Source of the DNA: Zygnema cylindricum
Taxonomy: Eukaryota > Streptophyta > Zygnematophyceae > Zygnematales > Zygnemataceae
Assembly (NCBI GenBank): GCA_037447655.1
Contig: JBBHKE010000549.1
Location: 195,010 to 259,009, forward strand
Reading direction: 5' to 3'
Length of the DNA stretch: 64,000 bases
The notes under the pieces are model-generated. The model was not told the origin of the DNA, did not search any database, and saw nothing but the letters and a program-made list of their open reading frames with translations. The position numbers and the translations under genes were made by a program. Shown in pieces: positions 23,185 through 59,058 of this stretch; position 1 is the stretch's first letter, and each line of letters opens with the position of its first letter.

Positions 23185-24693
23185 CAGCGCTAATAGTTTG
23201 GGTAGTTTAGATAAAAATTCCTACTAGCGCTAACAGTTTGTGTCATATAGGTTACAATTCTTGTTAGCGCTAGCTGTTTCTGTAATTTAGGTAACAATTC
23301 TTGTTAGCGATAACAGTTTTTGTAGTTTGGATAACAATTATTGTTAGCGCTAATAGTTTGTGTAAGATAGGTTACAATTCTTGTTAGCGCTTACAGTTTA
23401 TGTAATTTAGGTACCAATTCCTATCAGCGCTAACAGTTTGTGTAGTTTAGATAACAATTCATGTAAGCGCTAACAGTTTGTGTAGTTTAGATAACAATTC
23501 CTATTAGCGCTAATAGTTTGGGTATTTTAGATAAAAATTCATACTAGCGCTAACAGTTTGTGTAGTTTAGATAAAAATTCTTGTTAATTCTAACATTTTG
23601 TGTAGTTTAGATAACAATTCCAGTTAGCGCTAACTAATTATGTAGTTCTCGATAACAAGTCTTGTTAGCGCTAACATTTTGTTTAATTTAGGTAATAGTT
23701 CTCTTTAGCGTTAAGAGTTAGTGTAAGTAAGGTAACAATTCTTGTTAGCGCTAACAGTTTGAGTAGTTAAGATAACAATAAATGTTAACACTAACAGTTT
23801 GTGTAGTTTAGATAACAATTCTTGTTAGCGCAAACAGTTTGTGTAAGTTAGGTTACAATTTCTGTTAGCGCTAACAGTTTGTGTAGTTTAGGTTACAATT
23901 CTTGTTAGCGCTAACAGTTTGTGTAAGTTAGGTTACAATTCTTGTTAGCGCTAACAGTTTGTGTAAGTTAGGTAACAATTTCATTTAGCGCTAACTGATT
24001 GTGTAATTTAGATAACAATTCCTGTTAGCTATAACAATTTGTGTTAGTTAAGTAACAATTCCTATTAGTGCTAAAATGTGTAAGTTAGGTAACAATTCCT
24101 GTTAGCGCTAACAGTGTGTGTAATTAAGATAACAATTCTAGTTAGCGCTAACAGTTTGTGTTAGTTAGGTAACAATTTATGTTAGCGCTAACTTTTTGTG
24201 TAAGTTAGGTAACAATTCTGTTAGTGCTAACAGTTTGTGTAATTTAGATAGGAATTCTTGTTAGCGCTATCAGTTTGTGTAAGTTAGGTAACAATTTGTG
24301 TTAGCGCTAACAGTTTGTGTAAGTTAGGTAACAATTCCTGTTAGCGCTAACACTTTGTGAAAATTAGGTATCAATTTCTGTTAGCGCAAACAGTTTGTGT
24401 GGTTTAGATAACAATTCTTGTTAGCGCTAACAGTTTCTTTAGGTTTAGAAAACAATTCATGTTAACGCTAACAGTTTGTGTAGTTTAGTTAACAATTCCC
24501 TGTTAGGGCTGACAGTTTGTGTAAGTTAGGTTACAATTCCTATTAGCGAAAATAGTTTGTGAAGTCTATATAATAATTCCCGTTAGCGCTAAAAGTTTTT
24601 GTAGTTTAGATAACAATTCATGTTAGCGCTAACAGTTTGTGTAGTTTAGATAACAATTCTTGTTAGCGATAACATTTGTGTAAGTTAGGTTAC
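23185..24693. repeat. Sat1 satellite array, block 3a
   Basis: About 38 monomers of 40 bp, more homogeneous than block 2. Many read GCGCTAACAGTTTGTGTAGT followed by TTAGATAACAATTCTTGTTA, with GTAAGTTAGGTTAC as the other common form. It ends with GTTAC (24689-24693), one copy of the target duplication of the solo LTR. Confidence 0.96.
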
Positions 24694-25634: not shown

Positions 25635-27837
25635 GTTACAATTCTTGTTAACGCTAACAGTTTGTGTATTTTAAGTAACAATTCCTGTTAGCACTAACAG
25701 TTTGTGTAAGTTAGGTTACAATTCATGTTAGGGCTAACAGTTTGTGTAGTTAAGATAACAATTCCTGTTAACGCTGACAGTGTGTGTAGTCTAGATAACA
25801 ATTCATGTTAGCGCTAACAGTTGTGTAAGTTAGGTTACAAATATTGTTAACGCTAACAGTTTTTGAAATTTAGATAACAATTCCTATTAGCCCAAACAGT
25901 TTGTGTAAGTTAGGTTACAATTCATGTTAAGGCTAACAGTTTGTGTAGTTAAGATAACAATTCCTATTAGCGAAAATAGTTTGTGTAGTCTAGATAACAA
26001 TTCATGTTAGCGCTAACAGTTGTGTAAGTTAGGTTATAATTATTGTTAACGCTAACAATTTGTGTGAGTTAGGTAACAATTCCTGTTAGTGTTAACAGCT
26101 TGTGTAATTTAGGTAACAATTCCTGTTAGCACTAACAGTATTTGTAAATTAGGTTGTAAATTTTGTCAGCGCTAACAGTTTTTGTAATTTAGAATCAATT
26201 CATGTTAGCGATATTAGTTTTGTAAGTTATGTTACAATTCTTGTTAGCGCTGACAGTTTGTGTAAGTTAGGTAACAATTATTGTTAGCGCTAACAATTTG
26301 TGTAGTTTAGATATCAATTCATGTTAGCGATATTAGTTGTGTAAGTTATGTTACAATTCTTGTTAGCGCTGACAGTTTGTGTAAGTTAGGTAACAATTCT
26401 TCTAAGCGCTAACAATTTGTGTAGTTTAGATAACAATTCAAGTTAGCGCTAAAATTTTGTGTAGTTTAGATAACAATTTCTGTTAGCACTAACAGTTGTG
26501 TAAGTTAGGTTAAATTTTTTGTTAGCGCTAATAGTTTGTGTAGTTTAGATAACAATTCTTGTTAACACTAACAAGTTGTGTAGTTTAGATAACAATTCTT
26601 GTTTACGGTAACAGTTTGTGTAATTTAGGTAGCAGCCTACTTGTGGCTAGCAGGTTGAGTAGTTTAGATATCAATTCACATTACTTAGTAGCGGTTTGTG
26701 TAATTTCAATAACAATATATGTTAGCGATAAGAGTTGTGTAAGTTAGGTTACAATTCTTGTTGGCATAGCAGTTGTGTAAGTAAGGTTAAAAATTCTTTT
26801 AAGCATAACGGGTTGTGTATTTTAGATATCAATTCCTGTTAGCGCTAACAGTTTGTGTAGTTTAGATATCAATTCCTATTAACGATAAGAGTTTGTGTAG
26901 TTTAGATAACAATTTTTGTTAGAGTTGACAACTTGTGTAGTTTAGATAACAATACCTATTAACGCTAACAATTTGTGTAAGTTAGGTTATAATTCTTGCT
27001 TGCGTTAACAGTTTGTGTAAGTTATGTTATAATTCCTGTGAGCGCTAACAATTTATGTAGTTTAGATTACAATTTTTGTTAATGCTAACAGTTTGTGTTG
27101 TTTAGATAGCAATTTGTTAGCATTAACTTTTTGTGTAATTAAGGTAACAATACTTGTTAGCGCTAACAATTTCTGTAAGTTTGGTTAGAATTATTGTTAG
27201 CGCTTACAGTTTATGTAATTTAGGTAATAATTCTCGTTAGCGCTAATAGTTTGTGTAGTTTAGAAAACAATTCATGTTAACGCTAAAAGTTTGTGTAGTT
27301 TAGTTAACAATTCCTGTTAGCATAACAGCTTGTGTAAGATAGGTTACAATTCCTATGAGCGAAAATAGTTTGTGTAGTCTAGATAAGAATTCTTGTTAGC
27401 GCTAAAAGTTTGTGTAGTTTAGATAACAATTCATGTTAGCGCTAACAGTTTGTGTTATATAGGTAACAATTCGTGTTAGCCCTTACTTTTTGTGTAGTTT
27501 AGATAACAATTCCTGTTATTGCTAACAGTTTATGTAGTTTATATCAGAATTTTTGTTAAAGCTAATAGTTTGTGTAATTTAGATAACAATTCTTGTTAGC
27601 GATAACATTTGTGTAAGTTAGGTTACAATTTTTGTTAACGCTAACAGTTTGTGTAATTTAAGTAACAATTCCTGTTAGCAATAATAGTTTGTGTAAGTTA
27701 GGTTACAATTCATGTAAGGGCTAACAGTTTGTGTGGTTAAAATAACAATTCCTGTAAACGCTAACAGTTTGTGTAGTCTAGATTACAATTCATGTTAGCG
27801 TTAACAGTTGTGTAAGTTAGGTTACAATTCTTGTTAA
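25635..27837. repeat. Sat1 satellite array, block 3b
   Basis: Continuation of block 3a beyond the solo LTR, about 55 monomers. Local duplications are visible: GTTAGCGATATTAG with its flanks occurs near 26205 and 26325, about 120 bp (three monomers) apart. It ends at the LTR starting at 27838. Confidence 0.95.
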
Positions 27838-37265: not shown

Positions 37266-37712
37266 TGTATGTGGAGGCAGAGTACAATAGCTCCTATGGT
37301 TGTGAAATCAGAATAGCGCAGCAAAGCAACGTAGTATAACAACATAGGAGCGTAGTATAGCAACATCGCAGTGGAGCAGGATCAAGAGTGAACGGAATTG
37401 TTCAGGAACCTGGATGTGGTTGATTGAAATTGTCCACATGTACATAGTTGTTTAGTTGTAGTACTAGGATGACTAGCAGCTAGCTTGTTTAAATAGTTAA
37501 GAAGACTTAGTCAAAGGGAATCTTTTGCAAGTGGAATTCAAACAGCGAGCATTCAATCTTGTAATATCTTTCTTCCTAATTAAAAAACCTCAAGCTCTCC
37601 CTTGTGTACACCGTGTGACCATCTTGTTACTACAAGTGAATCTCTGGGAATATTCCGCTCTGCATTGTGGACTTGATGTTCGGAGTTACCCGTTTTACAT
37701 TGGTATCGGAGC
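37266..37712 (+). repeat. Probable 5' LTR and PBS of a plus-strand gypsy fragment
   Basis: TGGTATCGGAGC at 37701-37712 matches the 3' end of plant initiator tRNA-Met with one mismatch, so an LTR should end just before it at TTTTACA (37699). The left end is placed at TGTATGTGG, where Sat2 stops, giving about 434 bp; this end is a guess. Confidence 0.55.
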
Positions 37713-37748
37713 TCCCCCTTGTGACCCTATAGCATAGAAGGTCATGGC

Positions 37749-38054
37749 GTGTCCACGGCTGATATGTTAGAGCGAATACTTCGAAAATTAGAGAATGTCA
37801 GATTGCAAAATGCTCACCTGAGTGACTGCGTCGTAACCTTGGAATCTCGTCTTGGTGATTCGATACACAAAAGCATGGAGAGAGATTTGCGCAGACCAAA
37901 GTTACCACTTCCCGATGAGTTTGACCCTGCCAAGCATATGAATCTGGATGCGTGGTTGTTTTCGATAGCGAATTCTTTGAAGAACTTCCCTAGCCTATCT
38001 CATCTGTCAAGCGTGCCTGAGGAACATGAGAGAAGGGCCCACTGCCCAAAGTAG
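37749..38054 (+). pseudogene. Gypsy-type gag N-terminus, 3'-truncated
   Basis: A 101-codon open segment, 37 nt after the PBS. It contains a coiled-coil-like start (MLERILRKLENVRLQNAHLSD) and a PKLPLPDEFDPAKHMNLDAWLFSIANSL segment, which resembles the beginning of the capsid region in Ty3/gypsy Gag proteins. The frame ends at a junction with a minus-strand gypsy LTR. Assignment rests on position after a PBS and on general resemblance, not on a decisive motif. Confidence 0.55.
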
Positions 38055-38300: not shown

Positions 38301-38599
38301 AAGTCAATCGTGACTAAGACATAATGATAATTGCCCGCCCAATTCGACGTTCCCGCAGAACCAACTGCTGAAGGGTAAAGTGCGTGGTTCCCAGGAGGAG
38401 GGGAGACAGGCTGGATGCTAACACTGACCGTATTGATGGCACATCAAGACGTGGCCTCGCTGAGAAGACAGGCTGCATGCTGATGAATAGGAAGGAGGAT
38501 TGGCAAAGTAAGTTAAGTGAAAAGTGGGTTCGTCCTCCAATCCTCGAAGATGGCAAGGGGCCACATTGATTTGATCCCCTCCAGTGTAAGAACTCCGTT

Positions 38600-39560
38600 G
38601 TTTCAAACTTCTATCACTTTCAAAATCACCCGCCCTGCAAAAATATCAAGCGTGTCCTTCTTTTGTTGCATCCGATATACAAAGTCCCCCGGCATAAATC
38701 GTCTTTGCCGAGTCATATAATTCCCGCTCCGGCGCTGAGAATACCACAAGTGATCCTTGTGTTGAGCCGCCTGTAAATTCGCCATAGTGAGAGGCATCTC
38801 TTGGTGGAAGATCTTGGCCTTATCGGCGATCAGTTTTTCGACTGTTCCCTTGTCATCCATCACCGGGAGGACCACCGCTGGGGCTGAGGCAGTCTAGGGA
38901 GGATGAGATGCCGTTCGAATAAAATGAAGTAAGGGCTATAAGAGTGGAGAGAAGCTTGTCTGCTGAATTTGTATCCCATGGCGATCCAAGGCACCCTTCG
39001 GTCCCACTCTCCCAAATCTTCTTCCACTGCATATTAACGTAGTGACCATTTCACTGTCTGTACGCACCTTTCAGCCAAACCGTCGGCTTGAGGATGATCG
39101 CGGCTTGTCAGTCGATGATCAATGAGGCATTTCTCCAAAAGATTGGTAAATTCTCTAGCAAATTCGGATCCTTGGTCAGTTAGAACCTTTACTGGCGCCC
39201 CAAATTATGTCAACACCCTCTGCAAAAAGGCATCTGCAATTCACTTGGATTTCTTCCGAGGCAAAACCACAAACTCTATTCGTTTTGAAAAATGTTCAAT
39301 CATGACCAGCAAAAAACAAATCCCCCGTCTGCTAGTCGAAAGAGGTCCCTAAAGATCTAAAGACTATCGATAAAACATCCCCCGGATAGGAAGAGGATAA
39401 AGCTCAGTTCCGCTTTTTTTGTCAAAAGCTACCTTGACTCGATCGCATGGAAAGCAAGTCTACACAATGTGATTGACTTGGGCCCGCAATCCGTGCCACC
39501 AATAAGAGCATCTAACCAGGAAAGTGGTCCGCTTCTGCCCGAAGTGTCCACATTGCTGAT
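38600..39560 (-). pseudogene. Gypsy integrase
   Basis: The core domain is recognisable on the minus strand between about 39400 and 39060. It includes VLTDQGSEFAREF (second catalytic aspartate) and, later, SRDHPQADGLAER (catalytic glutamate). The C-terminal part at 38603-38875 (A-D-K-A-K...R-R-F-M-P-G-D-F-V-Y-R) matches the region before the GPY/F module. Remains of the N-terminal zinc-binding domain lie at about 39560-39430 (C-F-P-C). Stops occur in the core. The domain would insert cDNA into the genome; I see no chromodomain after it. Confidence 0.83.
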
Positions 39561-40019
39561 GGAGATGGGAAATCAAAGTTTTATGAGCTGAGAGGGGGGG
39601 AACCACTTTCCTTATACCGTTTGACCATTTCCGGAGGAGAATGCCTCGGTCCCAATCATCAACGTCATCCGGTTATGCACCCGAGATAATTGAACTGTAG
39701 CCAAGTGGGGAATAGGAGACCATTGCTGGATAGATTTGAGAGCACCGGGGTCGTTCCACATATCCTATCGTCCGGCTCCTATGGGCACATGCCCCTCCAC
39801 GTTCGCCGCGAAAGGTGATAGCTCCCCTCCAGATTGGGGAAGACAGATTAAGGCGAAAGACGCTCGAATGAGTCCCAAACTGATTTCCGGGTCCTCATCA
39901 TGCCGAGCCCCGGTATAATCCAAGGTAGAGGGATCGGGATTTTGGCTAAATCCGTCGGCATTCCCATGGATTTCCTTAGCCCTCTAAACAATACTGAAAT
40001 CATATTCCTGCAGGATAAG

Positions 40020-41252
40020 AACCCATCTAGCGAGTTTGCCGGTTAACTTACTATTTTCCATGATTCATTTCAAGGGTTGGTGGTAAGTAATCAGGGTGAA
40101 ATGGACCCCGTATAAATAAGGCCCGAAACGTTGGATTGCCCAAACAGCTGCGAGGAGCTCTCCGTGGTAACTACTATAATTTCCCTTTGCTAGGTTATTG
40201 CTCTTGCTGGCGTAAGCCACCACAAATTTAGCTCCGGCATCATCGACTTGAGCCAAAACCGCTCCCAATCCAAACTTGCTCCAATCAGTTTAAAGGAGGA
40301 AAGGCCTTTGGTGATCACGCATCGGAAGCACGGGGTGTTGTTTCAGAGCATCTTTCAAGAACTGGAAGGCGATCTGTTGCTCTTTGGCCCATTGCCATTA
40401 TTGGTCCTTCAGCAATAACTGATTGAGGGGCTGGGCGTGACTACTGAACTCGGGGATAAACATCCGATAGTAGTTGGCCAAGCCTAGAAAGGTGCTAAGG
40501 GCCGAGATGTCCTGCGGTGGGGGAAAAGCGTCAAGGGATGCCACCTTGACCATGTGGGGACCCACAGTCTCGGGAGTCACCTCATGTTCGAGTTAAATGA
40601 TTTTCTGTACCCCAAAAATGCCTTTGCCCGGGTGACATTTCAAGCCCGCGGCTTGGAGTGCCCGAAGAACAATCTGGATATGCTGCAAGTATTCCTCAAA
40701 AGTCTTTAAGAATATGATCACATCATCAATATAGCACCGAGCATAATCAATTCCTCGAAGCGCTTCGTCCATTACCCGTTCGAATTTGGCCGGTGCATTC
40801 TTCAGCCCGAAGGGCATGTAAATCTATTCATACAACCGCGAACATGCCCAAAATGTCGTTCGCTCCCGCTGCTTCGGTTTCATGACGATTTGGTGGAAAC
40901 CGTTCTTCATGTCCAGAGTAGCAAAAAAGTCGAATATCTCTTTTGGAGTTTGCATTGGATACCGGTCAGAGATGAGCATGCGATAATCTCCACACATTCG
41001 GAAATCTACAATTTTTCCAGACGAGTCTTTCTTGGGAGGGAAAATTGTCAGGGAAGCAAACCCATGGAGTCCTGTACTTTCTTGAACCAATCCGGCTTCC
41101 ACCAAAATCTGGACTTTAGCCGTGATGAATTCCCTTTCCTTAAAACTGAGAGGATACTGCTTCTGCCAAACAGTAGTCGTCTCGTCGATTAAATCGATTC
41201 GAAAAGGGGTTCTTTTGTAGATGCCGACATCGGTTTCTGACCATGAGAACAC
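40020..41252 (-). pseudogene. Gypsy reverse transcriptase-RNase H
   Basis: RT is read in two open segments. 41252-40824 holds the fingers and palm start, with the DMKNGFHQI motif containing the first catalytic aspartate. 40817-40593 holds MPFGLKNAPAKFERVMDEAL and YIDDVIIF, the Y-x-D-D box. Connection and RNase H sequence follow, with FLGLANYYRMFIPEFS near 40500 and LGAVLAQVDDAGAKFVVAYASK...YSSYHGELLAAVWAIQRF at 40268-40065. The Y-E-x-E box of typical gypsy RNase H is represented by Y-H-G-E. Frame changes separate the pieces, so no functional enzyme is made here. Confidence 0.92.
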
Positions 41253-41629
41253 CTACTTGTTTGTGGCCAATATTTCGGAGAGCCGCGCCTTCTGCTGAGG
41301 GTCCAACCGCTCCCCCAAGGTCCATTCGATTTTCCCTGGCTCAACAACAGCCCGAGCTTCAAGCGGTCTACCCCAAAGGTTAATGGCGAACTCCAACCCT
41401 ACCGGTGGATCTACCTCTACCCCTCCGGCTAGGACACTACTGCTGACAACTTCCGCTAAGCTGTCGCCATCTGAGCCGCCGCCCCCCCCCCACTGGAAAA
41501 ACTTGCGTTGGTGAAATGTGAATTTTTCTCCTCTCTCTCCCACGCTCAAGCTGCAAAGTTGTTTGTATTGCCAACAATTGAGGAGCTTGAAGGTAAAAAG
41601 CCCAAGACTTTGGAGATTAAAGACCTGAA

Positions 41630-42590
41630 AAGGCGAGAGCATGTTTGATTACCCATGTTATTGCATTGAGATCCATACTTTGCCCGATTAAGCTGCACCT
41701 CTGGAGGTCTGAAATACCTGATGCGGCCGTTGTGTCCGGAAGGAATCCCATTGCATGTTCTCTTTTGGTGACTGTCCGTGTCGTCCTGAGACCTGTCTTA
41801 CTATCAAAGATCATTCCGCTGCTCTTTTTCGATATGCGTGGCTGGATAGAAAGGAGATCAAGGTGGGGAGTGCTATGCGTGGAAATATTAGCTTGTTGCA
41901 CCTGAAAAACAGAGAGCGGTCTATTTTTGTTCAGGTGTTGCCGTCCTTCACTTCCCTAAGATCTGTTCCACAAAGTTTCAGGAGTCTGGGATCTGCTGTT
42001 TTAAGAATTTCTGAAGGACGAGGAGCAGAATCAAATTGGTCTAATAAGCCCTTACTCTGTGTGCCCTACATCCCATTTGCGCCGCGTCAAAAACTATAAG
42101 ACTTCCTAAAATCAGGGTCACCTTATTCCAGTTGTTGACAACCTGTTTCTGTTGGTCGTTCCCCCGGGTGGACATTCTCCAAAACGTACCCCACTGGTGT
42201 ATCGTGAAGCTGTTGTATCCTTGAGATGACTTGAATCATCTGAAAAATGTTCTACTCTTGCTGTCCCTATGCCCCCTCCCTTGTCCTTCTAGGGAGTATC
42301 CCTGACAAGGTCATCCAGCCACTACCAGATCCACCCTTCCAAGACTGGCTATATGAGGTGTCATTATATTTTCCACATTCAGGGGAAGATTGCGGTGGGC
42401 TTTGGAAAAGGCGTGCACATGATGCTGTTGAGGGTATAGGTGGTGGAGCTGTTGCAAGCGATGCTCGCTGACCGCTTCTGCTTTACGCGATATTTCCACG
42501 GTTGTATAGGATTCTACCTGATATCGTGCTTTCAAAATGGTTTCCAGATCTATACTGATTCCAGAAAATAGAGATAAAATTCGGAGGCCT
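41630..42590 (-). pseudogene. Cytosine-5 DNA methyltransferase domain in the gypsy pol
   Basis: A compact C5-methyltransferase domain of about 320 codons, broken by stops and frameshifts. Motifs in order on the minus strand: motif I LRILSLFSG (42560-42586, SAM-binding F-S-G); motif II with E in YTTVEIS; motif IV DLVVAG, a TGA codon, then PCQG in the same frame (catalytic Cys codon at 42305-42307); LEGQGRG...SRTFF; after a frameshift, motif VI YVLENV (42168-42185); motif VIII-like FDAAQMGCRAHRVRAY, stop, TNL (about 42050-42105); and motif IX-X REHAMGF...IGQSMDLNAITWV (41650-41760). The AHRxRxY-TNL and FSGI features resemble the DNMT3 type more than CMT or MET1. It lies between protease and RT in the element's reading direction, so it belongs to the retrotransposon rather than to a host gene. 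Confidence 0.85.
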
Positions 42591-42720
42591 GAATTAGGAA
42601 CCTTCAACGACACCACTTGTCGGTTGAATTTTTTTTGTTCGGATATGGTCCCTGAAACATCAAACTGAAGGTTTGGAACTGTTTCCTTTAGTAATAAAGC
42701 TGAGAATGTCTGTTCCACTT

Positions 42721-43040
42721 TACACTAGAGTTTGGCCACCTGTAATAATCTTTCATTGTATTCCTCTTCCCACCTCTTGGAAATAAGGAAAATTGCTAGA
42801 TTTCCTCAGCTATATCTTTTGAGCTGGCAAAAATTTCCGCCGGAGAGGATGTAGCATACACCAGGTAGCAGCTAGACACCGAGACATTAGTCTTCCCCCG
42901 GTTCCATAAGTCGAAAGAAACCACCACTTTGGTTTCTTTCAGATTTATGGGGTCCCGAACGGTAGATTGTTCTTTCCACACGCTTAACCCCATATTCATC
43001 CGTGGTTGGGGAGCGCTCCGGTGTCGACCACAACGTCCTA
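42721..43040 (-). pseudogene. Gypsy aspartic protease region
   Basis: The minus strand encodes V-V-V-D-T-G-A at about 43014-43034, the active-site signature of a retropepsin. The open segment 42999-42796 follows after a frame change (VWKEQ...KVVVSFDLWNRGKTNVSVSSCYLVYATSS). It would process the polyprotein. The link to the downstream methyltransferase is through about 70 further codons with a frame change near 42720. Confidence 0.7.
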
Positions 43041-43199
43041 ATATCCTCCGTACCCGTTGAGTTTGAAATTTCTTGTTCGGTTTAGTATAAGAGCCACTGA
43101 TAAGGCTTTGTAGACCCTATCCACCATAGGGTTTTTCGGATTGGTAGACAAAAAAAACGGCTATTGGCGGAGTTGCTTTGTCGACTCTCTCTTTCCCAA

Positions 43200-46100
43200 A
43201 ATGTATTTATTCTCCCAATGCCTGAATGAGGATTTCTTCGGGCAAATTGTGGGAGGTTGCCAGAGTTTTGACGTGGGTTAGGGCGTAGGGCATGAGGTGT
43301 CGGACTAGCATGACGGGCGGCTTAGAGGAAGGAAGTTTAGCTTTTGGTGAAGATGTTGAGAAATGTGGTTCCTGCTGATCTTGCTCCTTTCCTTCCTTTT
43401 CGTCACTCTCGGAGCTGGTATCTAGTGTTGGTGGAGTATGGGGAGTGTCATCGTCCGGGCGTTCTGCCATGTACCTCTCAAACCAATCTTTATTGCTTTG
43501 TTTTTCTCTTTCCAGTGACTCCTTTTCTAGCTGTTGTTTCTCGCTCTTGTAGTTTTTGAAACCGAAGGCAGTTTAGGTTTGGTAGGAAAAAATGGCGGAT
43601 GAGTGTGTTTGATTCTAACGCCGATGTCGTTGTTGAGGATCACCGCCCGGGGAGTGAATGACAAAGGCCCGGTAGCCTTCCGGTTGTGGACTTTCTGACC
43701 CATTCGCTGTTTGTCTTTTCTTTGCTCCAAGGTAGAATGGCGGAGTTGTCGCCGGTTATCTGCCACCCCAACATTCAAAGCTCCGGACAGAAATGTTCGT
43801 GCATGGTGGACATTTGGAGGTTCCAAATCCCAACCCATTAAGTCATTATCGTTTTTACCCGCTATGTCTTGAAGTTCTAGCTCCGCAAGCTTTTGTAAAA
43901 AATCGTGTTTTTCTTTCTGGAGTCTTTGTGCTGCAGTGAGAGGAGCAGCCCGAGAGGGAGATCGCAAGCGGAGGGCAGCCAATTCTGCTGCCATTTTAGC
44001 CAATGGCTGACTCTCCTGCTGGGTGATTCTTTCCAGTGTTAGCTTTTGCGGAATAACTGGTGCTCGTTCCGATTCCTCTGGTGTAGGCGGGACTCAAAGG
44101 CCCCAAGGATAGAGGAGTTGGAGTGGAAGAGGAGTTACAGCGATTTCACCTTATCCAGTGAACAGGGCAAAATGCATCATCTCTTTAGGGAATCCATTTT
44201 TACAAAAACACTGTTCCTCTTGATGCCTCATAAAGCCACAGGCTACACATTAAGATCCTTCGGTGGTGTATTTTCCCCTCAACTCGTTAGACACCCGAGC
44301 ATCATCAAATTTAAGAAGCTTAATTTGCCTCAGCTGTGATTGAGACATTTTTGTTGTTTCGGACTGAAAAGTTGGTCAATACGTTTCCTTGTTCACTGGG
44401 GATTTCCCCCCCCCTCCCACTTTATTTTTGTTCCAATTGCTTTTGAGTCCGCTCAGCACGTTCTTTCTCCCATTCTTTTTGTTTGATTGCGAGCTCAGGT
44501 TTGAGTTTCTTGGGGCAACCTTTCCACCTATGTCTAGTTTGGTGGGAATTCATGCAATTAAACAAAATCATCCTATCATCAGCCCTTTTGGCTGGTTTTG
44601 ATCCGTTATCAGCCTCCTGTTTGCCTTTAATCTTCCGCAAAGCTTGAAGTTCCTCTTGTTCCTGATTGCTTAAAGAGGTTTCTCCGGCATATCCGTCAAA
44701 ATTTGCTCTAGCATTGCCGGTGACAGCCTTTTCCCGAGCCTCGCTATGGACGAAGTGGTCGTACAGTTTCATAGCTACCAAAGAGATTTCCTTAGCCGAG
44801 GGATTAATTTATTCGATTGCTTGCCCTGCAATCCAATTATCTATAGCTGTTTGCCGAGTAGGTCGAAACAAATTTCGGACAGCTATAAAATATTTGGTTG
44901 TCATTGCTGGAAGGTCAATAGTTGACAGTTTTGTCTTCTGGCAGAGGCGTGAGAGCCTATTAAAAAGGGTTTGCAGTGTCTCATTATTCAAGCATCGAAA
45001 TTCTATGAACTCCTTGATGGCAGACTGGTTTCTCTCTGTGTATAGAAGCCTCCATATGTTCAAAAGAGAAGTGCAAGGGTTGGGATCTGCGACCATTCGA
45101 GTTGCAACCCGCGCGGCTTGAGTAGCTTGCAGCTGGTTGACATAGGCTATGCCTGCAGCTTCATATCATCTGTAAAATTTGTTATTGCAGGTGTTGCCGC
45201 CGCTGCAGCCAAGTTAACTTCTGCTTGTAAAACTGCTGCATCAAGAGGAGGGTCCGAAATCTTGATGCTAGGAGCCATCAAGAGTAGTTGTCGCTCCTTG
45301 TAATCCGCCAAAGCACCTTGTGAAAGATAGTTTTACCATCATTGGGAAAAGAGTGGTCTCGAATTCATCAGGAATGGCCCCGCCCCTATATTTATTGATT
45401 TCAGACTGGGTGAAAGATTTCCACAGCAATTCAAAATCAGAGAAAGTGATCCCCGAGCTATCTCTCGTAAAGATCCTTATGTCCCGCATTTCTTTTTCCT
45501 CCTCAGCAAGGTTGGTGAACTGTGGAGAGGCTGGTCTGGTGGGGCTCACAAATTGAGCCGGTGAAATTGCTACGGGATTTGCCCCTTTTATAACCGAACC
45601 TCTTTCTACTCCGGGTGTAACAGGTGGGATCCCCCCCGCACTGAGGTTGGTCTTGCTTTCAAAAGAGGTGTGGACTTTCTAGCTCCTATATATTTGGGAG
45701 AGTATTGTTCCTCCCTTACAACTGTCTCCACCTATGGGATGTGGAGACAAGGTCTCTTCAAGGCTTTTGTGGAATGGACGGTGGCGGAGACGGAGACAGA
45801 GACTGCTAGGGCCTTGTATGAAAAGGAGTATGTCTCCTGGTTTGCCTCCTAGATGTCTTAGGAGGTGGATTTCTTGAGCTGGAAGAGGAAGAACGTTTGT
45901 GAGGAGGTGAGTAGGCGGGTACGTCGTGTTTGTAGGGTAAAATAAGCGGGTCCGGTGACCCACGAACTGCTAGAGCAGGAGAAAGGGATGGCGAAGAAGA
46001 GGAGGCGTGAGGTGGTGATGGTGGAGGAGTGGACACTCCGAAGAAAATGTGTTGTCTCCGGTGGGGTTGTTGTTGCACCACGGCCACCACAGTAGAAGAT

Positions 46101-46260
46101 CTCGCCACTGAGACCAAGGTAGGATGCTTAGTGGTAGCGGCTGCAAAGTTACCCGATAGATCTGTACCCAACCCCTCTCCGTTATGCCCTATTGTTTCCT
46201 CCCCTTCCTGCTCAAGAGGAGATTCTGGTCTAGGTCCCGGTGAAGTCATGGGAGCTTGCG
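43200..46260 (-). pseudogene. Gypsy gag
   Basis: Starts at 46249 (MTSPGPRPESPLEQEGEETIG) with a long Pro/Ser/Arg-rich N-terminal region to about 45806. Capsid-like sequence at 45549-45268 and 45096-44809 (L-F-N-R-L-S-R-L-C-Q-K-T-K-L...Y-F-I-A-V-R-N-L-F) resembles the retrotransposon gag domain. A decayed zinc knuckle (FNCMNSHQTRHRWKGCPKK, first Cys replaced) lies at about 44580-44520, followed by a charged helix. A further 900 bp (44003-43207) encode low-complexity acidic and basic segments that lead into protease. Several frame changes; not functional. Confidence 0.75.
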
Positions 46261-46283
46261 TCCCAATAAGAGTTGCCTGACCT

Positions 46284-46780
46284 TGAGGTTGCCCTCAAGC
46301 AGAGGGACCTATCCTATGACGATGAGCATATGCGAAGCCGCCGTTCCACCACCAGATTTATTTTGAAGATTGGAAGTGGAACATGCTGTTGGAGCAGCAA
46401 AATTCATAAGGTAATAGCTCAGTCTATAATGGAGGCTGATTATATGGCAGCAAGCTTAGTTGTCAAGGAGTTATTGTGGGTAAAGTCTCTCCTTCAAGAA
46501 CTTCATTTTATGTAATCTAAACCTCAAATAGTGTGGTGTGATAACCAAGCAGCTATTGCGATTTCATCTAACCGAGTCATCACTTCAAAAGCAAGCACAT
46601 TGATATCAAGTTGCATTTTGTGAGAAAGATAGTGATGAACAAAAATTTGAAACTCAGTTATTTGCCGGATGAGATGATGGTAGCCGATATGATGACTAAG
46701 GCTTTACCAGCACCTAAATTGAAGTTTTGCAGAGAGGAATGTGGACTTAGTGGCTAAGAGAGTCTAAAGGTTTAGCGGAG
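46284..46780 (+). pseudogene. RNase H fragment of a plus-strand family 1 copy
   Basis: Begins abruptly inside RNase H (MRSRRSTTRFILKIGSGTCCWSS, AQSIMEADYMAAS, VWCDNQAAIAISSN) and runs to the pol stop and a polypurine tract (GTCTAAAGGTTTAGCGGAG). A stop at 46513 and a one-base deletion near 46571 disrupt it. It is joined head-to-head to the gypsy gag. The 3' LTR follows. Confidence 0.85.
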
Positions 46781-46975: not shown

Positions 46976-48016
46976 TGAAACTCTGAGACCTCCATAAGTC
47001 CTCAGAGTAGACAGCTTCCAAGAAGCCTCTAGGATAATTCTGACCCCTTTGTGTTCCAGCAAAAATAACTGCCACCCTGGCAGACAAATACCCTGACCAA
47101 CTGCACCCCTGTGAAGACAAGACTCCCCTGAGTCGGTAGCAAAAAGAATCTCTGAATTTGCTCCCCTGAGCAGTAAGTTATGGAGGGTCAAAGTTGACCT
47201 TTTGTACAGAAGCTCTCTGGGAGAGAGGGTCCTATCTTCTAATTTTTCTAAGTCCTATCTCTCTCACAGACTCTATCTACTGATGTACGGAACCAATCAG
47301 AATTGAGTTCCGTACGTAAAAGTACAGCCGCCGGTGTACTTTATGTACGGACATTGTACGACATGGCCAAAATGTCGACACATGTCAAATCCGGATTCGG
47401 TGCCGTAATCTCCGGAGATTCCACAATCCAACGGAATTTCGCCACGCGTCATCCGATGTGGCGATGGCCACAAACCGCCGAAATCTTCCTCCGCGATCTC
47501 GGCGCTAATCCCGGCCGTCCGATTAAATTCAGATTTAATCGTGGCCGTAATAAATACATGCGCGGTATTTATTTCACTTCCGAAACAAATGCGCGGTATT
47601 GATTCGTAATCCGTATCGTTATCCGTACCGGATCTATGTATCCCGTAATCCGTAACAGTTAAATGAATTTATCGTACGTGTACACATTTAAATAATTATC
47701 GAACTATATAGTACCTAACACTAATCCTAGACTTAACGGCTAAGGCTACCGGCTACTTCCCATCTGCCGGCCGGTAGCTACAGTGATCAAATCCCGCCGC
47801 CGGCACATATCTTTTAGATAAATAAATAAACCCTAGAATAAAATTCCCGTAAACCTTAGGATAGCCAAGGTAGCCATGGCTCTAGCTTCCTCTCCAATGT
47901 CTCAGTGACTGCGACAAGTTTGAGAGTTGGAGAGAGAAGTTAGAGGTAGACTGCCTCGGCTTCTTTCTATTTCTATTTAGACCTAGAAAATACTAATAAA
48001 TCCATTAGTTTCTACA
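46976..48016 (-). repeat. 3' LTR of R2
   Basis: TGAAACTCTGAGACC to TTAGTTTCTACA on the plus strand. On the minus strand its final 20 nt are ATGGAGGTCTCAGAGTTTCA, the same start codon used for gag at the 5' end. Confidence 0.97.
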
Positions 48017-48032
48017 CTCCCCTTATTTTCTA
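48017..48032 (-). other. R2 polypurine tract
   Basis: Minus strand TAGAAAATAAGGGGAG immediately before the LTR start TGTAGAAAC; overlaps the gag-pol stop. Confidence 0.85.
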
Positions 48033-51000
48033 GTCAATCTTTAATTTCAGACCACACTTCTCCCTGCAAAAAATTAGCTTAGGGGAAGGCACAGGTTTGG
48101 TCATCATATCTGCTACCATCTCACTATCTGGTCTGTACTCTAAACTGATTATTTTGTTTTCTACTTTCTCTCTAACAAAGCTGAGTCTGATGTCCATGTG
48201 TTTGGCTTTAAAATGGTGTTTAGGATTAGCAGAAATAGCGATTGCTGCCTGATTATCACAAAATATTTTCTGCACACCACTCTTAAGGTGACCAAGCTCA
48301 CCAAGCAAAGACTTGACCCACATCAATTCTTTTACAGCAGAGCAAGAGGCCATATACTCAGCCTCCATGGTGGACTGAGCAATAACCTTTTGCTGTTTGC
48401 TACTCCAACAGCAAGCCCCATCACCCACATATAATACATATCCAGAAGTACATCTCCTCATCGGAGCATCACCATAACTGGCATCACTCCAAGTAGTGAT
48501 GTCAGTATTCTCCCCACCCAAATGCAACCATAGATCTCTAGTTCCTACCAAATATCTAAGGACTCTCTTAGCTGCCTCCCAGTCCTTCTTAGTGGGAGCA
48601 TTTAGACTTCTACTCAGCACTCCTACAGCTGCAGCTAAATCCGGCCGGGTACAATTCATAAAATATATTAGACTTCCCACTACTTGCCTGTAAGGAATAG
48701 TCTGCATGAACTTCTGTTCATCAGGAGATAATTCCTCGTCTAAGACTATGACTCCTTCTTCCTCACTCCCCTCACTTCCCTTCTTCAACTCCATTGGAGT
48801 TGTACAACTATTAGCTTTATCCATTTGAAATTTTTCAAGCATGTTCCCTATTGCTTCCTTTTGAGTCAGTTTTATAATTTTCCTTTTCCGGTCTCTCTCT
48901 ACTTGAATTCCCAAAATATATCTTGCTTCTCCCATATCCTTCATTTCAAATCTCCCCTTAAGATCGGTTTTCAGTTTGTTAATTTTTTCCATTGATTTAC
49001 TTAATACAAGCAAATCATCAACATAAATTGCAATAAATATCAAACCTTCCTCATCTTCAAAAACATAGATTGAGTGATCTGAGCTGATCCGAATATATCC
49101 CAGACCGGTAAGAAACTCATCAAGCTTCTTATTCCATTGTCGAGGTGCCTGTTTCAAACCATAAAGAGATTTAATCAGCCGGCATACCTTACTCTCCTCT
49201 CCTTCCTCCACAAAACCTTCGGGTTGTCGCATGAAGATCTCCTCTTCCAATTCTCCATGCAGAAAGGCTGTCTTGATGTCCATCTGATGCACTTCCATGT
49301 CTTCCGCCGCTGCTAAACTGAGAAGTATGCGGACGGAGGGAAATCTGACCACCGGGGCAAAGGTTTCCTCGTAGTCAATTCCTTCCTTTTGTGTAAATCC
49401 CTTTGCCACTAATCTGGCCTTGTAGCGTTCGATTGTGTTATCTGGGTTCAGTTTTAATTTGAAGACCCACTTACAACCGATTGGTTTTCGGTTAGGTGGA
49501 CAGTCCACCAGCTCCCAAGTATCGGCTGCCATGATTGAAGCCATCTCCTCATTGATGGCTGTCTTCCACCGGTTTCTTTCTGGACAAGTCATCGCCTCTC
49601 TATAAGATTGAGGTTCATCTTGATGAGATAGTTTAGTTACCTTGTTATTAACCTGTTTTTCTTGCAGTCTTTTGCTACTTCTCCTCCCCCCCTCAAAATC
49701 TGATGCCGGAATAGATGGTTCTCGTGGATTCTTTCGAACAAACTCAGCTTCTCCCCTATCCCTTGATTCCGAATCAATTTCCACCACGTCTTCCGCTTCG
49801 AGTAGAGTTGTCACTGGAGTTTCCACAGCCGAGTCCTTTTCGGTCTGATTTGTTCCTGCAAGAATGTCATCTTCTCTAAAACCTGGATAGTTAGGAAGCT
49901 CAAAGTCATCGGAATTTTCTGACTCAAATCTGATTTTTACTGACTTTGTATATTTGAAGGGATCCACAGACTTTCCTTCATCCATAACTACTAGATGTTT
50001 TACTAAGATTATATCTTCCCCTTTTAAGTCATAAACTCTATATCCTTTAACATCTTCATCATATCCTAATAAGTATCCCGGTTTTCCTTTAGGATCTAGC
50101 TTCCAATTGGACCGATCAGTATCTAGACTGAATACTTGACTGCCGAAAACCTTTAAGTGAGATATGTCTGGTTTCCGGCCTGTCCATCTCTCATAAGGTG
50201 TTTGATCTTTTATAGCTGAAGTAAGAACTCTATTCTTGAGGTAATTAGCACAGTTCATTGCTTCTGCCCAAAACCTTTTTCCTATCTTTTTATCTGACAA
50301 CATACTTCTAGCACTATCACTTAGTGTTCTATTTAACCTTTCAGCTACCCCATTCTGTTCCGGATTTTCTGGAACTGTCTTTTGGTGTTGAACCCCATCT
50401 TCCCTCAGAAAATCCTCAAACTGGTTAGAAGTATACTCTCCACCATTGTCACTCCTTACTCTCTTGATTGGAGTTTCATGGAGTTTTTCGCTCCATGCTT
50501 TATATTGTCTAAAACAATCCTCAGCTTCGGACTTGTTTTTCAAAAAATATACCCGGGAATACCGAGACCAATCATCAGTTATAGTCATCATAAATCTCTT
50601 CCCCCCCGGTGAGGGCACTCTAGCCGGTCCCCAAATATCTGTGTGTACTAGATCTAGAAGTTTTTCTCCCTTATAGGTGGCTGTTTTAGGAAAGGGTAAT
50701 CTGTGTGCTTTACCTTGAGCACATCCACTACAATCACTTATATCATCACTCTCACTGAACTGAATCCCATCCACCACTCCCATCTTTTTCATCTCTCTTA
50801 ACTTATCTAGATTCACATGCCCAAGCCTCTTATGCCACATCATAATATCATGAACACCAGCATAGTAAAGTTTCTTCTTTTCATTACTTAATATCAGCCT
50901 AAACATCCCATGGCTACCTTTCTCAGCAATGAAATAGACATCATCCTCAAAACTAGCAGTAAAGACTCCTTCCCTAGTGCTAGTAAAAAAACCCTTATCA

Positions 51001-52388
51001 TCTAATACTGATGTAGAGATAAGATTTTTGTTCAGCTCCGGAATAAACAATACATCGGAGAATGTTAATATGGATGTCTTTCCTTTTACTAACACTTTTA
51101 GATCTACCGATCCTACAAGAGTAGTGGTGACTATCCTCCCATCCCCGTACTCTATCTCTACGGTGGGAATCTTTCTTATCTTAGTGAACAGGTGTCTATC
51201 CTTACACATGTGCATGGAGGCACCTGAATCTACAATCCAGCCTGCTTCACCTTTCAATCCACCGTAAGCACATTTCTGCCTCCGTGGAATTTCGACCTCA
51301 TTTTTCGCCTCCAACTCCTCATCCAAAAGGAGCTCATCGTCCTCGTCCTCGGATTCAGCCTCAAGTACCTGTGTGACAAGGGCCTTTTTCTTTCCTCTCG
51401 GGGTACCACCGGTCTGCCCCTCCTTTAACCGAAGCACGGTTAGCTTTGTGCACTCTGCCATATAGTGCCCCGGTTTCTTACAAAAATGACATAGACCTTT
51501 GGGAGCCCTTGGTTCGAACTCATCTGCTTGTTTTTTCTGCTCCCTACCCCCATAGTTTCCGACCGGTTTTCGGGAATCCCTGTTCCTCCAATCAGTCGTT
51601 GTTGCCAAGGCTTGGCCACTCTTTCCTCCCCTTCGGATCTCAATTGTATTTTCTTGAACGAGGATCATCCCTACCACTGAGTTCCATATCCACCTTGAGT
51701 CAGGCAAGTCCTGCACACGGTAAACTATGTTCACGAACTCATCAGGTAACTTCATCAGTAAACAGTTAACCTTTTCTTTTTCACTAAAGGCTTTTCCCGC
51801 ACTCTCTAGCTCCATGAAGAGTGTAGCAAGCTCATTGCAAAAATCCAACATATTTCCCCCTTTGTATACATACTCCTTAACTTTCTGATCAGCCAACTGT
51901 TGTTGCTGAATCGTACCACTTCGGTACATCTCTATGAGAGCCATCCAAAGATCGGATGCCCTTTCTACCTGCAAATGAGGACATGCAAGTCCTTGAGTGA
52001 GATGGCGTAGGATGAAGTGCTTTGCCGCCATATTGTTGAAGTCCCAGGTTTCAGTATCATTCTCCTCATTCCTCGGAATAGGTGACATGAATGTGGAACC
52101 AGTTGCTATTGGTGTGGTCGTCTCCTTCTCCTTTCCTTTGTCCACCACCTCTCCTTCCTTTGTTTCCTCCGTTGAAGGTGGGTCCTCTTTCCTGGTGAAT
52201 CTGGTTCCTCCAAACCCTGGAGGAATTCCAAGACTTGATGGACGCCCCAACCGTCCACTCACTATCCCCCAAAACCTTTTTTCGCATAGAGCTCCTATCA
52301 TCATACTTTCCCAGTATATGAAGCCAGTTCCATTAAAGATTGGTACCCTAGAGTGTGGGCCCATAACCTGAAACTCTGAGACCTCCAT
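48030..52388 (-). CDS. R2 gag-pol polyprotein, 1452 aa, intact
   Basis: Complete copia polyprotein in one frame, with gag and pol not separated by a stop or frameshift. Residues: gag 1-300 with UBN2-type segment (CNELATLFMELES, about 183-196); CCHC knuckle C300-C303-H308-C313; acidic linker 345-365; protease D387-S-G; HHCC H519-H524-C553-C556; integrase D584, D647, E683 (D,D-35-E); integrase C-terminus to about 815; RT about 955-1200 with QMDIKTAFLHG (D1037) and YVDD 1122-1125; RNase H from about 1300 (WSDASYGDAPMRR, STMEAEYMASCSAVKEL, CDNQAAIAISANP). All catalytic residues are present. The start ATG (52386-52388) lies inside the 5' LTR, and codons 7-12 are encoded by the PBS. It is the first in-frame Met and upstream frame sequence is LTR, which supports this start. 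Confidence 0.97.
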   Translation of the reverse strand: MEVSEFQVMGPHSRVPIFNGTGFIYWESMMIGALCEKRFWGIVSGRLGRPSSLGIPPGFGGTRFTRKEDPPSTEETKEGEVVDKGKEKETTTPIATGSTFMSPIPRNEENDTETWDFNNMAAKHFILRHLTQGLACPHLQVERASDLWMALIEMYRSGTIQQQQLADQKVKEYVYKGGNMLDFCNELATLFMELESAGKAFSEKEKVNCLLMKLPDEFVNIVYRVQDLPDSRWIWNSVVGMILVQENTIEIRRGGKSGQALATTTDWRNRDSRKPVGNYGGREQKKQADEFEPRAPKGLCHFCKKPGHYMAECTKLTVLRLKEGQTGGTPRGKKKALVTQVLEAESEDEDDELLLDEELEAKNEVEIPRRQKCAYGGLKGEAGWIVDSGASMHMCKDRHLFTKIRKIPTVEIEYGDGRIVTTTLVGSVDLKVLVKGKTSILTFSDVLFIPELNKNLISTSVLDDKGFFTSTREGVFTASFEDDVYFIAEKGSHGMFRLILSNEKKKLYYAGVHDIMMWHKRLGHVNLDKLREMKKMGVVDGIQFSESDDISDCSGCAQGKAHRLPFPKTATYKGEKLLDLVHTDIWGPARVPSPGGKRFMMTITDDWSRYSRVYFLKNKSEAEDCFRQYKAWSEKLHETPIKRVRSDNGGEYTSNQFEDFLREDGVQHQKTVPENPEQNGVAERLNRTLSDSARSMLSDKKIGKRFWAEAMNCANYLKNRVLTSAIKDQTPYERWTGRKPDISHLKVFGSQVFSLDTDRSNWKLDPKGKPGYLLGYDEDVKGYRVYDLKGEDIILVKHLVVMDEGKSVDPFKYTKSVKIRFESENSDDFELPNYPGFREDDILAGTNQTEKDSAVETPVTTLLEAEDVVEIDSESRDRGEAEFVRKNPREPSIPASDFEGGRRSSKRLQEKQVNNKVTKLSHQDEPQSYREAMTCPERNRWKTAINEEMASIMAADTWELVDCPPNRKPIGCKWVFKLKLNPDNTIERYKARLVAKGFTQKEGIDYEETFAPVVRFPSVRILLSLAAAEDMEVHQMDIKTAFLHGELEEEIFMRQPEGFVEEGEESKVCRLIKSLYGLKQAPRQWNKKLDEFLTGLGYIRISSDHSIYVFEDEEGLIFIAIYVDDLLVLSKSMEKINKLKTDLKGRFEMKDMGEARYILGIQVERDRKRKIIKLTQKEAIGNMLEKFQMDKANSCTTPMELKKGSEGSEEEGVIVLDEELSPDEQKFMQTIPYRQVVGSLIYFMNCTRPDLAAAVGVLSRSLNAPTKKDWEAAKRVLRYLVGTRDLWLHLGGENTDITTWSDASYGDAPMRRCTSGYVLYVGDGACCWSSKQQKVIAQSTMEAEYMASCSAVKELMWVKSLLGELGHLKSGVQKIFCDNQAAIAISANPKHHFKAKHMDIRLSFVREKVENKIISLEYRPDSEMVADMMTKPVPSPKLIFCREKCGLKLKID
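52353..52368 (-). other. R2 PBS, complementary to tRNA-iMet anticodon arm
   Basis: Minus strand GGTTATGGGCCCACAC directly follows the LTR end GTTTCA. The first 14 nt are the exact complement of the plant initiator tRNA-Met anticodon stem-loop (around CCCATAA), as I recall that tRNA. This implies priming by an internal tRNA half, as in Drosophila copia, rather than by the tRNA 3' end. It is translated as V-M-G-P-H in gag. Confidence 0.85.
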
Positions 52389-53409
52389 AAGTCCTCAGAG
52401 TAGACAGCTTCCAAGAAGCCTCTAGGATAATTCTGACCCCTTTGTGTTCCAGCAAAAATAACTGCCACCCTGGCAGACAAATACCCTGACCAACTGCACC
52501 CCTGTGAAGACAAGACTCCCCTGAGTCGGTAGCAAAAAGAATCTCTAAATTTGCTCCCCTGAGCAGTAAGTTATGGAGGGTCAAAGTTGACCTTTTGTAC
52601 AGAAGCTCTCTGGGAGAGAGGGTCCTATCTTCTAATTTTTCTAAGTCCTATCTCTCTCACAGACTCTATCTACTGATGTACGGAACCAATCAGAATTGAG
52701 TTCCGTACGTAAAAGTACAGCCGCCGGTGTACTTTATGTACGGACATTGTACGACATGGCCAAAATGTCGACACATGTCAAATCCGGATTCGGTGCCGTA
52801 ATCTCCGGAGATTCCACAATCCAACGGAATTTCGCCACGCGTCATCCGATGTGGCGATGGCCACAAACCGCCGAAATCTTCCTCCGCGATCTCGGCGCTA
52901 ATCCCGGCCGTCCGATTAAATTCAGATTTAATCGTGGCCGTAATAAATACATGCGCGGTATTTATTTCACTTCCGAAACAAATGCGCGGTATTGATTCGT
53001 AATCCGTATCGTTATCCGTACCGGATCTATGTATCCCGTAATCCGTAACAGTTAAATGAATTTATCGTACGTGTACACATTTAAATAATTATCGAACTAT
53101 ATAGTACCTAACACTAATCCTAGACTTAACGGCTAAGGCTACCGGCTACTTCCCATCTGCCGGCCGGTAGGTACAGTGATCAAATCCCGCCGCCGGCACA
53201 TATCTTTTAGATAAATAAATAAACCCTAGAATAAAATTCCCGTAAACCTTAGGATAGCCAAGGTAGCCATGGCTCTAGCTTCCTCTCCAATGTCTCAGTG
53301 ACTGCGACAAGTTTGAGAGTTGGAGAGAGAAGTTAGAGGTAGACTGCCTCGGCTTCTTTCTATTTCTATTTAGACCTAGAAAATACTAATAAATCCATTA
53401 GTTTCTACA
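52369..53409 (-). repeat. 5' LTR of R2 (contains gag ATG)
   Basis: 1041 bp. The transcript leader must lie in the minus-strand 3' part of this LTR. The 20 nt at 52369-52388 are both LTR and coding sequence. Confidence 0.97.
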
Positions 53410-58660: not shown

Positions 58661-59058
58661 ACAGTGGGAGAGCGTTCGCAGCTGAAGTGAAAGGTCCCAG
58701 GTTCGAACCCTGGCCGGCTCAATTTTCCCAAGTGTGGGACATGCCGAATCTCAGATTTCAAGGAAATCTAACATGGTATCAGAGCCAGCGGGATTGCCGA
58801 TGGTTTGACCGGCTTTCCCGTGAGGGGGGGTGTTGGATTGGCACGTGAAGCCGGTCCAATACGGGGTAGAATATGGAATATCCATACTCGAGCCGCCCGT
58901 AATAAATGGGTACGGACCCGCCAGTCTCTACATCGAGCTGGTTGCACAGTGGTAGTGCGTTCGCAGCTGAAGTGAAAGGTCCCAGGTTCGAACCCTGGCC
59001 GGCTCAATTTTCCCAAGTGTGGGACATGCCGAATCCCGGATTCCAAGGAAATCTAACA
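58661..59058 (+). mobile_element. TRIM element with tRNA-like LTR, 5'-truncated
   Basis: Partial 5' LTR (58661-58773), PBS TGGTATCAGAGCC (58774-58786), an internal region of only 57 bp ending in the polypurine tract GTGAGGGGGGG (58820-58830), then a complete 228-bp 3' LTR (58831-59058, TGTTGGATTGG...ATCTAACA). A full copy would be about 513 bp. It has no coding capacity, so it must use enzymes of other elements. Its PBS is the standard 3'-end type, unlike the copia elements here. The right end abuts the target duplication GTTAC (59059-59063). Confidence 0.9.
58935..59006 (+). other. tRNA-like cloverleaf inside the TRIM LTR
   Basis: A 72-nt sequence that folds as a full tRNA: acceptor GAGCTGG/CCGGCTC (7 bp, one G-T), D-stem GCAC/GTGC, anticodon stem TTCGC/GTGAA, T-stem CCAGG/CCTGG with loop TTCGAAC, and discriminator A. 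It contains A-box-like TGGTAGTGCG and B-box GGTTCGAACCC, so an internal RNA polymerase III promoter is plausible. The anticodon loop AGCTGAA lacks U33, so a working tRNA is unlikely. A copy lacking the acceptor 5' strand and part of the D-arm is in the truncated 5' LTR (58661-58720). Confidence 0.85.

Follow-up and report, generated by a model that had tools for sequence, protein, structure and literature searches.

A decayed Ty3/gypsy retrotransposon of Zygnema cylindricum with a cytosine methyltransferase inside Pol and a conserved stop codon ahead of it

Positions 42590-41630 of the window, by which we mean the whole 64-kb stretch of Zygnema cylindricum DNA analysed, encode a broken C5-cytosine methyltransferase (MTase), and this domain lies within a Ty3/gypsy retrotransposon. 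On the reading that we regard as fairly likely from comparison of the copies, the element is a dead, truncated member of a large and long-lived Ty3/gypsy group that carries an MTase in Pol, probably makes it by readthrough of a UAG stop codon, and would use it to methylate its own cDNA or its landing site. The parts of the element are listed in Table 1.

Table 1. Features of the window, in window coordinates
Feature	Coordinates	Strand	Evidence
Whole gypsy element	38503..46291	-	blastn to L018, L019, L028, L030-L033; gag to integrase C-terminal tail
Gag region	44101..46291	-	aligned to gag-side stretches of L018/L019/L028
Retropepsin-type protease (PR)	43005..43333	-	aligned to PR of L018/L019/L028/L030/L032
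TAG stop conserved between PR and MTase, with CAA as next codon; presumed site of readthrough	42796..42798	-	comparison of family A and C copies
C5-cytosine methyltransferase (MTase), motifs I, II, IV, VI, VIII, IX, X	41632..42586	-	motifs, profiles, HMM
Reverse transcriptase (YIDD) and RNase H, single frame with stops	40002..41252	-	PF00078 1.1e-16, PF17917 4.9e-30, PF17919 1.5e-28
Integrase: H2C2 zinc finger and catalytic core	39091..39597	-	PF17921 3.3e-12, PF00665 6.4e-10
Integrase C-terminal tail	38503..38893	-	blastn 38575-38503 = L018 8887-8959; ORF 38603-38893
40-bp satellite arrays	1-1251, 8210-13509, 23186-24688, 25638-27836		

The initial annotation had read C5-MTase motifs from the minus strand, and all of them were recovered: LRILSLFSG (from 42586 on), TTVEIS, DLVVAG-TGA-PCQG, YVLENV, AHRVRAY-stop-TNL and the motif X piece GQSMDLNAITWV, which ends at about 41632. 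These motifs are spread over three frames with several stops and frameshifts, and their order is canonical. A search with PF00145 bears out the assignment: the pieces, stitched together with X at the breaks, match at 3.7e-7 (30.3 bits, with the cut-off at 22), and a single frame with its stops read as X scores 2.4e-4 (21.1 bits), slightly under the cut-off. Two short open pieces of the domain, taken alone, are without an MTase match in Pfam. The stitched domain also matches TIGR00675 (1.5e-10 and 41.2 bits, under that model's cut-off) and the PHROG DNA methyltransferases (8.5e-12 and 1.2e-10). Chance is ruled out without any hand stitching, because a six-frame scan of the 64 kb with an HMM of six phage MTases has its top match at 42586-42212 (E 4.7e-14). 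The second separate place in that scan, 41991-41632, covers motifs IX-X on the same strand directly downstream, and with an E-value of 0.28 is not significant by itself. Five full-length phage MTases have 55 columns in which they do not vary; 30 of these are retained in the window copy, against 3.2 expected from composition. A significant PF00145 match, together with motifs I-X in order, is found likewise in relatives from the same assembly, namely L015 (2e-11), L018 (2.2e-11) and L019 (8.2e-13).

The MTase sits, as first proposed, between the retropepsin and the reverse transcriptase (RT) of a minus-strand gypsy element, with the protease DTGA (43025-43014, minus strand) upstream and RT, RNase H, H2C2 finger and integrase core downstream on the same strand. 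In the window and its relatives, Pol has the order PR-RT-RNaseH-integrase with domains of gypsy type, which places the element in Ty3/gypsy. Judged by blastn pieces against relatives and by domain search, it is a truncated and decayed member of what we call family A, with ~70-78% DNA identity to other members in most listed pieces and 82-88% in a few short ones; its RT is 88% identical to that of L019. The gag region of the window has no significant Pfam match, and a degenerate zinc-knuckle-like cluster of Cys and His is visible by eye at ~44.5 kb. In family A the protease falls slightly under the PF13650 cut-off (1.7e-4 in L018, 2.1e-4 in L019). At its 3' end, homology to the window stops short of the PHD finger, which in L018 occupies residues 1477-1521 of its frame, and neither an LTR nor a PHD finger of the gypsy copy was found in the 64-kb window. 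The annotation's description of the copy as dead agrees with its stops, frameshifts and truncation; one stop that might be counted with them, the TAG at 42798-42796, is instead a conserved feature of the family and not a mark of decay.

Two candidates for the LTRs of the gypsy copy were rejected. A young copia element (46976-53409) accounts for the LTR-like repeats at 47.0-48.0 and 52.4-53.4 kb; it has LTRs of ~1.04 kb that are 99.7% identical, a 5-bp target duplication TTCCG, and its pol on the minus strand; a repeat at 34.6 kb is 73% similar to the LTR of the same copia. A copia-type fragment on the plus strand lies upstream of the end of the gypsy homology (46291). On the other side, an LTR element appears by eye to start near 37.7 kb and to face the truncated gypsy 3' end, its visible part (~37690-38054, plus strand) consisting of an LTR-like end, a primer-site-like TTGGTATCGGAGC and a gag-like frame. 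Elsewhere, tandem satellite arrays with a 40-bp unit like AGCGCTAACAGTTTGTGTAATTTAGATAACAATTCCTGTT take up ~10 kb of the window. A tRNA-Gln (CTG) is predicted among repeats at 58935-59006 (+) and may be due to chance or be a tRNA-derived repeat; an Rfam search of the window returned nothing at gathering thresholds.

Relatives were sought in the whole assembly (352,776,454 bases in 2689 contigs), which contains three families of MTase-bearing gypsy elements: A, the type present in the window, B and C. With the MTase of L018 as query, family A gives at least 118 matches (118 scored among 1887 candidates, 119 rows), at identities to the query from 100 to 61%; these counts are lower bounds that leave out the window copy and may include haplotype contigs, as several equal-score matches, for example in the contig pairs C1920/C1974, C507/C1662 and C839/C2519, may be. 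Twenty-one of the 119 rows are without an inner stop. A PF00145 profile search of the assembly scored 123 matches among 782 candidates, many within long open frames. Eight PF00145 loci were retrieved, comprising four of family A, two of B, one of C and one chromomethylase-like sequence. The last of these, L013 on contig C514, looks like a chromomethylase-like exon of a host enzyme. Its best PDB matches (4.5e-28 to 4.8e-28, including 4fsx, 4ft2 and 4ft4, vs 3.5e-11 for the next group) are all labelled DNA (cytosine-5)-methyltransferase 1, and 4fsx is the maize chromomethylase ZMET2; neither a chromodomain nor a BAH domain was seen in the three L013 frames scanned. Such an exon fits a streptophyte host. 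CMT-like enzymes are mentioned in haptophytes too (PMC12344493).

In all, 40 stretches were retrieved, half of them 9.9 kb long and the other half no longer than 3.4 kb, and they are silent on the share of gypsy copies that lack an MTase, because all were picked for holding one. The intact relatives foreseen by the annotation do exist, in that L015, L018 and L019 have long intact frames. The family B locus L015 has a single frame of 2395 codons that starts with gag, continues to integrase and includes a PHD finger; in it the MTase, RT, RNase H, H2C2 finger, integrase core and PHD finger (1.5e-9) score above their Pfam cut-offs; the zinc knuckle (0.0086) and protease (0.012) lie below theirs and were assigned by motifs. 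Family A has a different layout, with PR, a stop, and then MTase-RT-RNaseH-IN-PHD in the frame of PR (1525 codons in L018, 1520 in L019), and the frame of gag relative to PR varies among its copies. Its PHD finger scores under the Pfam cut-off (2.4e-4 in L018, 0.0044 in L019), and that of the one B copy scanned is clear. PWWP, ADD and DUF3444 are absent from the seven frames scanned. Pieces of LTR were seen in family B (366 bp at 99.7% identity in L021, 262 bp at 100% in L022), and none was found for family A in the retrieved loci or the window. Family C (L009, L025) is nearer to A, its MTase being 49-61% identical to that of A in separate aligned stretches and its RT (from L025 only) 79% identical. 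Families A and B are further apart, sharing 38-43% of residues in the MTase and 46-55% in RT.

Within the window no second copy of the element was found by DNA or by RT comparison, and the window taken alone would be compatible with a separate gene or element having inserted by chance into a single gypsy copy. The relatives make such an origin exceedingly improbable. The order PR-MTase-RT on one strand occurs in 18 of the 20 long loci, all of them picked for the MTase (the exceptions are L026, without a PR motif, and L031, without RT), and L015 has one open frame across all three domains. No convincing repeats flank the domain, the longest exact match there being nine bases. The recurring order refutes a nested insertion and implies that the gypsy Pol regularly includes the MTase as one of its domains, in keeping with the initial proposal that it was built into the element.

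A stop codon separates PR from the MTase in all 24 copies that are readable at this point (21 of family A, the window copy and two of family C); left out of this count are L052, which has other sequence at the site, and L035, L036, L043, L046 and L051, which end before it. The stop is TAG in 23 copies and TAA in L033, and the codon that follows is CAA in 23 and TAA in L028. The 11 letters TAGCAATTCCC are unchanged in 18 of the 24, the family C locus L009 among them, and altered by one or a few letters in L025, L028, L033, L049, L053 and the window. PR and MTase are in the same frame in all six copies examined for this; a frameshift between stop and MTase occurs in L042, L049, L053, L054 and the window. 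Families A and C thus have what marks a readthrough site, a same-frame stop in a context kept across copies. The frame of L015, from family B, has no stop at this junction. The context UAG-CAA-UUC resembles the tobamovirus-type readthrough signal, UAG-CAR-YYA, with a mismatch at the last place. A downstream RNA structure was also considered as a stimulator of readthrough and is a weak candidate: the short stem 3' of the stop, in an alignment of 16 chosen copies, shows little covariation. From the conservation of TAG and CAA we infer that families A and C probably make a Pol polyprotein by readthrough, with the MTase at its front.

The same stop might be no readthrough signal at all, if the MTase-Pol frame restarted behind it or if the host read UAG as an amino acid. 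Methionines that could serve a new start do occur behind the stop, for example in LVQMATLRRE. A restart, however, would leave TAGCAATTCCC noncoding, and yet it is kept in three-quarters of the readable copies, nor would it call for the frame that PR and MTase share. Nor is the absence of in-frame UAG from the long frames of L015, L018 and L019 what a reassigned code would produce. We therefore judge this alternative improbable and keep to readthrough as the preferred account of the conserved stop.

Selection on the MTase was gauged from Nei-Gojobori Ka/Ks ratios among 16 stop-free family A sequences (L036 and L037 were dropped), with 64 of the 120 pairs falling in Ks bins between 0.02 and 2.5 and the remaining 56, saturated or nearly identical, excluded; the pairs share history and are not independent, and stop-free copies are a preselected set. 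The median ratio is 0.242 at Ks 0.1-0.4 (27 pairs), 0.153 at Ks 0.4-1.0 (12 pairs) and 0.101 at Ks 1.0-2.5 (22 pairs). Three very close pairs lie at 0.32-0.62, as expected for copies decaying after insertion, and no usable pair reaches 1. As a control, the frame was shifted by one or two bases in the 34 pairs at Ks 0.4-2.5, and the median, 0.12 in the true frame, became 1.30 and 2.49, respectively. In family B the ratio is 0.24 in two usable pairs. By these substitution patterns the MTase is under purifying selection, with a Ka/Ks of about 0.1-0.15 in diverged family A pairs. It is less constrained than RT, for which family A gives 0.08-0.16 (three pairs) and ~0.02 at high Ks, the latter figure coming from two pairs only.

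As for the residues of the catalytic motifs, most rows of family A keep PCQG, ENV, R.R and a motif X of GQSMD type; two A rows have DNV. The Pro-Cys of motif IV is present in every family A row listed (20 of 26) and in L009 and L025 of family C. Family B has ECQG instead, Glu for Pro, in 12 of 12 distinct loci (L015, L016, L017, L020-L024, L026, L027, L029 and L034), and keeps the Cys, EN(V/I), R.R and motif X in most rows listed. We know of no other conserved MTase family with ECQ. The replacement of an otherwise conserved proline throughout B, along with the weaker constraint on MTase than on RT, could be taken to mean that the domain, above all in family B, has lost its methylating activity and is retained for binding or for structure. 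This we consider unlikely, in view of the Cys, the EN(V/I) glutamate, R.R and motif X that remain in most listed rows of both families, and of the purifying selection seen in A and in the few usable pairs of B.

In a tree of 43 MTase sequences, families A, B and C fall together and apart from phage MTases and human DNMT3A/B (support 100/100), with A plus the window copy supported at 89/94 (26 rows), B at 100/99 (8 rows) and C at 100/99 (2 rows, both partial). Long branches are flagged in this tree, and its DNMT3 rows are human only, with no plant DNMT3; it omits copies with more than one stop (e.g. L033 and L020) as well as L005, a short phage protein. An RT tree of 20 rows separates A plus C from B, again at 100/100. 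MTase and RT thus show the same split, which suggests that the elements already carried the MTase when families A and B parted.

The initial annotation had called the domain DNMT3-like, and this holds in part. The unrearranged motif order fits, as does the ranking of solved structures, in which the L018 MTase matches DNMT3A at 2.8e-13, DNMT3C at 2e-11, DNMT3B at 5.5e-9, HhaI at 1.7e-5 and DRM2 at only 0.0014, and the family B enzyme matches DNMT3A at 1.5e-10 and HhaI at 0.003. What does not fit is motif IV, which is PCQG in A and C (ECQG in B) vs PCND in DNMT3A/3B, and the tree, which groups the retroelement MTases with one another and does not place them with human DNMT3A/B. DRM enzymes, also C5-MTases of streptophytes, differ by a rearranged motif order, that of the retroelement MTases being I, II, IV, VI, VIII, IX, X. 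A phage or bacterial gene, in place of a eukaryotic DNMT3, has to be weighed here as the source of the domain: motif IV reads PCQG(Y/F)S as in phage enzymes, the stitched window copy matches phage enzymes at up to 64 bits (6e-9), and midpoint rooting puts the retroelement MTases outside a group of phage and DNMT3 sequences. Against it stand the top rank of DNMT3A over HhaI for both A and B and a motif VIII, AHR.R, that resembles DNMT3. The structure ranking cannot separate the two ancestries, because a phage MTase likewise has DNMT3A as its top solved-structure match, and the tree has long branches; a phage or bacterial source seems to us doubtful. Viral contigs, scanned with the MTase and with a piece of the RT, gave no relative.

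Such elements are already known, and the annotation's mention of captured DNMTs in Klebsormidium and in dinoflagellates matches a published account. De Mendoza et al. (2018; PMC5890265) describe DNMT3-bearing gypsy elements from Klebsormidium nitens, and from Symbiodinium elements of DIRS and LINE type that carry DNMTs; CpG methylation in yeast was shown for DIRS-type retroelement DNMTs, and the LINE and Klebsormidium gypsy enzymes gave no methylation there, a result which the authors regard as inconclusive. KnitGypsy-Dnmt3 resembles the present element in being an LTR gypsy of a streptophyte whose Pol includes an MTase related to DNMT3, and purifying selection acts on both (Ka/Ks < 0.2 there and about 0.1-0.15 in diverged pairs here); it differs in that its repeats are described as DIRS-like in arrangement (PMC5890265). 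SymbioDIRS-Dnmt3 and SymbioLINE-Dnmt share with our families a retrotransposon C5-MTase, many copies and purifying selection, and differ in having DIRS and LINE backbones instead of a gypsy one (PMC5890265). The main text of that paper has no mention of PHD, plant homeodomain, readthrough or motif IV. A 2019 opinion article portrays land plants as without transposons encoding DNA methylases (PMC6338049). Readthrough of a stop between Gag and Pol is known from murine leukaemia virus (PMC10085805, PMC5009743) and from the fission yeast gypsy elements Tj1 and Tosmo1-3 (PMC10085805). The latter are alike in having an in-frame stop with conserved context within the polyprotein, and differ in its place and kind, TGA-CT between Gag and PR-RT-IN as opposed to UAG-CAA behind PR and directly before the MTase (PMC10085805). 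Among open-licence papers in PMC, no title or abstract found reports MTase, PHD finger and readthrough stop together in a gypsy element. As far as open papers tell, four things are added here: where the readthrough stop is placed, the ECQG branch, the PHD finger as partner, and how large the expansion is.

Several steps would make up the proposed mechanism. Products upstream of the stop would be made in bulk, and ribosomes would read through the UAG in a minority of passages. The MTase would be made only as the first domain of an MTase-RT-RNaseH-IN-PHD fusion and so be packed with the replication machinery, where it could methylate new double-stranded cDNA or the DNA of the landing site, such that new copies enter the genome marked. 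The marking may protect the cDNA or keep a fresh copy quiet and tolerated, and the PHD finger would steer the fusion complex to chromatin. Through the conserved stop, small amounts of MTase would be bound to the replication complex; this speaks for an enzyme that acts on cDNA or at the integration site and against one that is free in the nucleus.

Depletion of CpG was examined as a possible footprint of self-methylation and is not supported as such. Two A frames have an observed/expected ratio of 0.62-0.63 and two B frames one of 0.89-0.92, vs 0.46 inside the copia, which carries no MTase (0.68 with its LTRs); the whole window stands at 0.72. Given ratios that do not speak for strong CpG self-methylation, the target of the MTase may be a non-CG context, may be methylated transiently, or may be other than the DNA of the element.

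Retroelements are usually victims of DNA methylation. A broader reading, which we offer tentatively and hold to be possible rather than probable, is that this group fused a methylation writer, the MTase, to a chromatin reader, the PHD finger, with UAG readthrough in two families imprinting the cDNA or landing site at birth, and that family B, stop-free and with Glu-Cys in motif IV, possibly has altered chemistry or substrate. Divergence of the MTase to about 40% identity between families while under selection would mean that the group as a whole has carried it for long. With the ECQG family, a catalytic motif usually regarded as invariable can be put to a natural test, and the elements of Z. 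cylindricum make it testable what a parasite may gain from methylating DNA.
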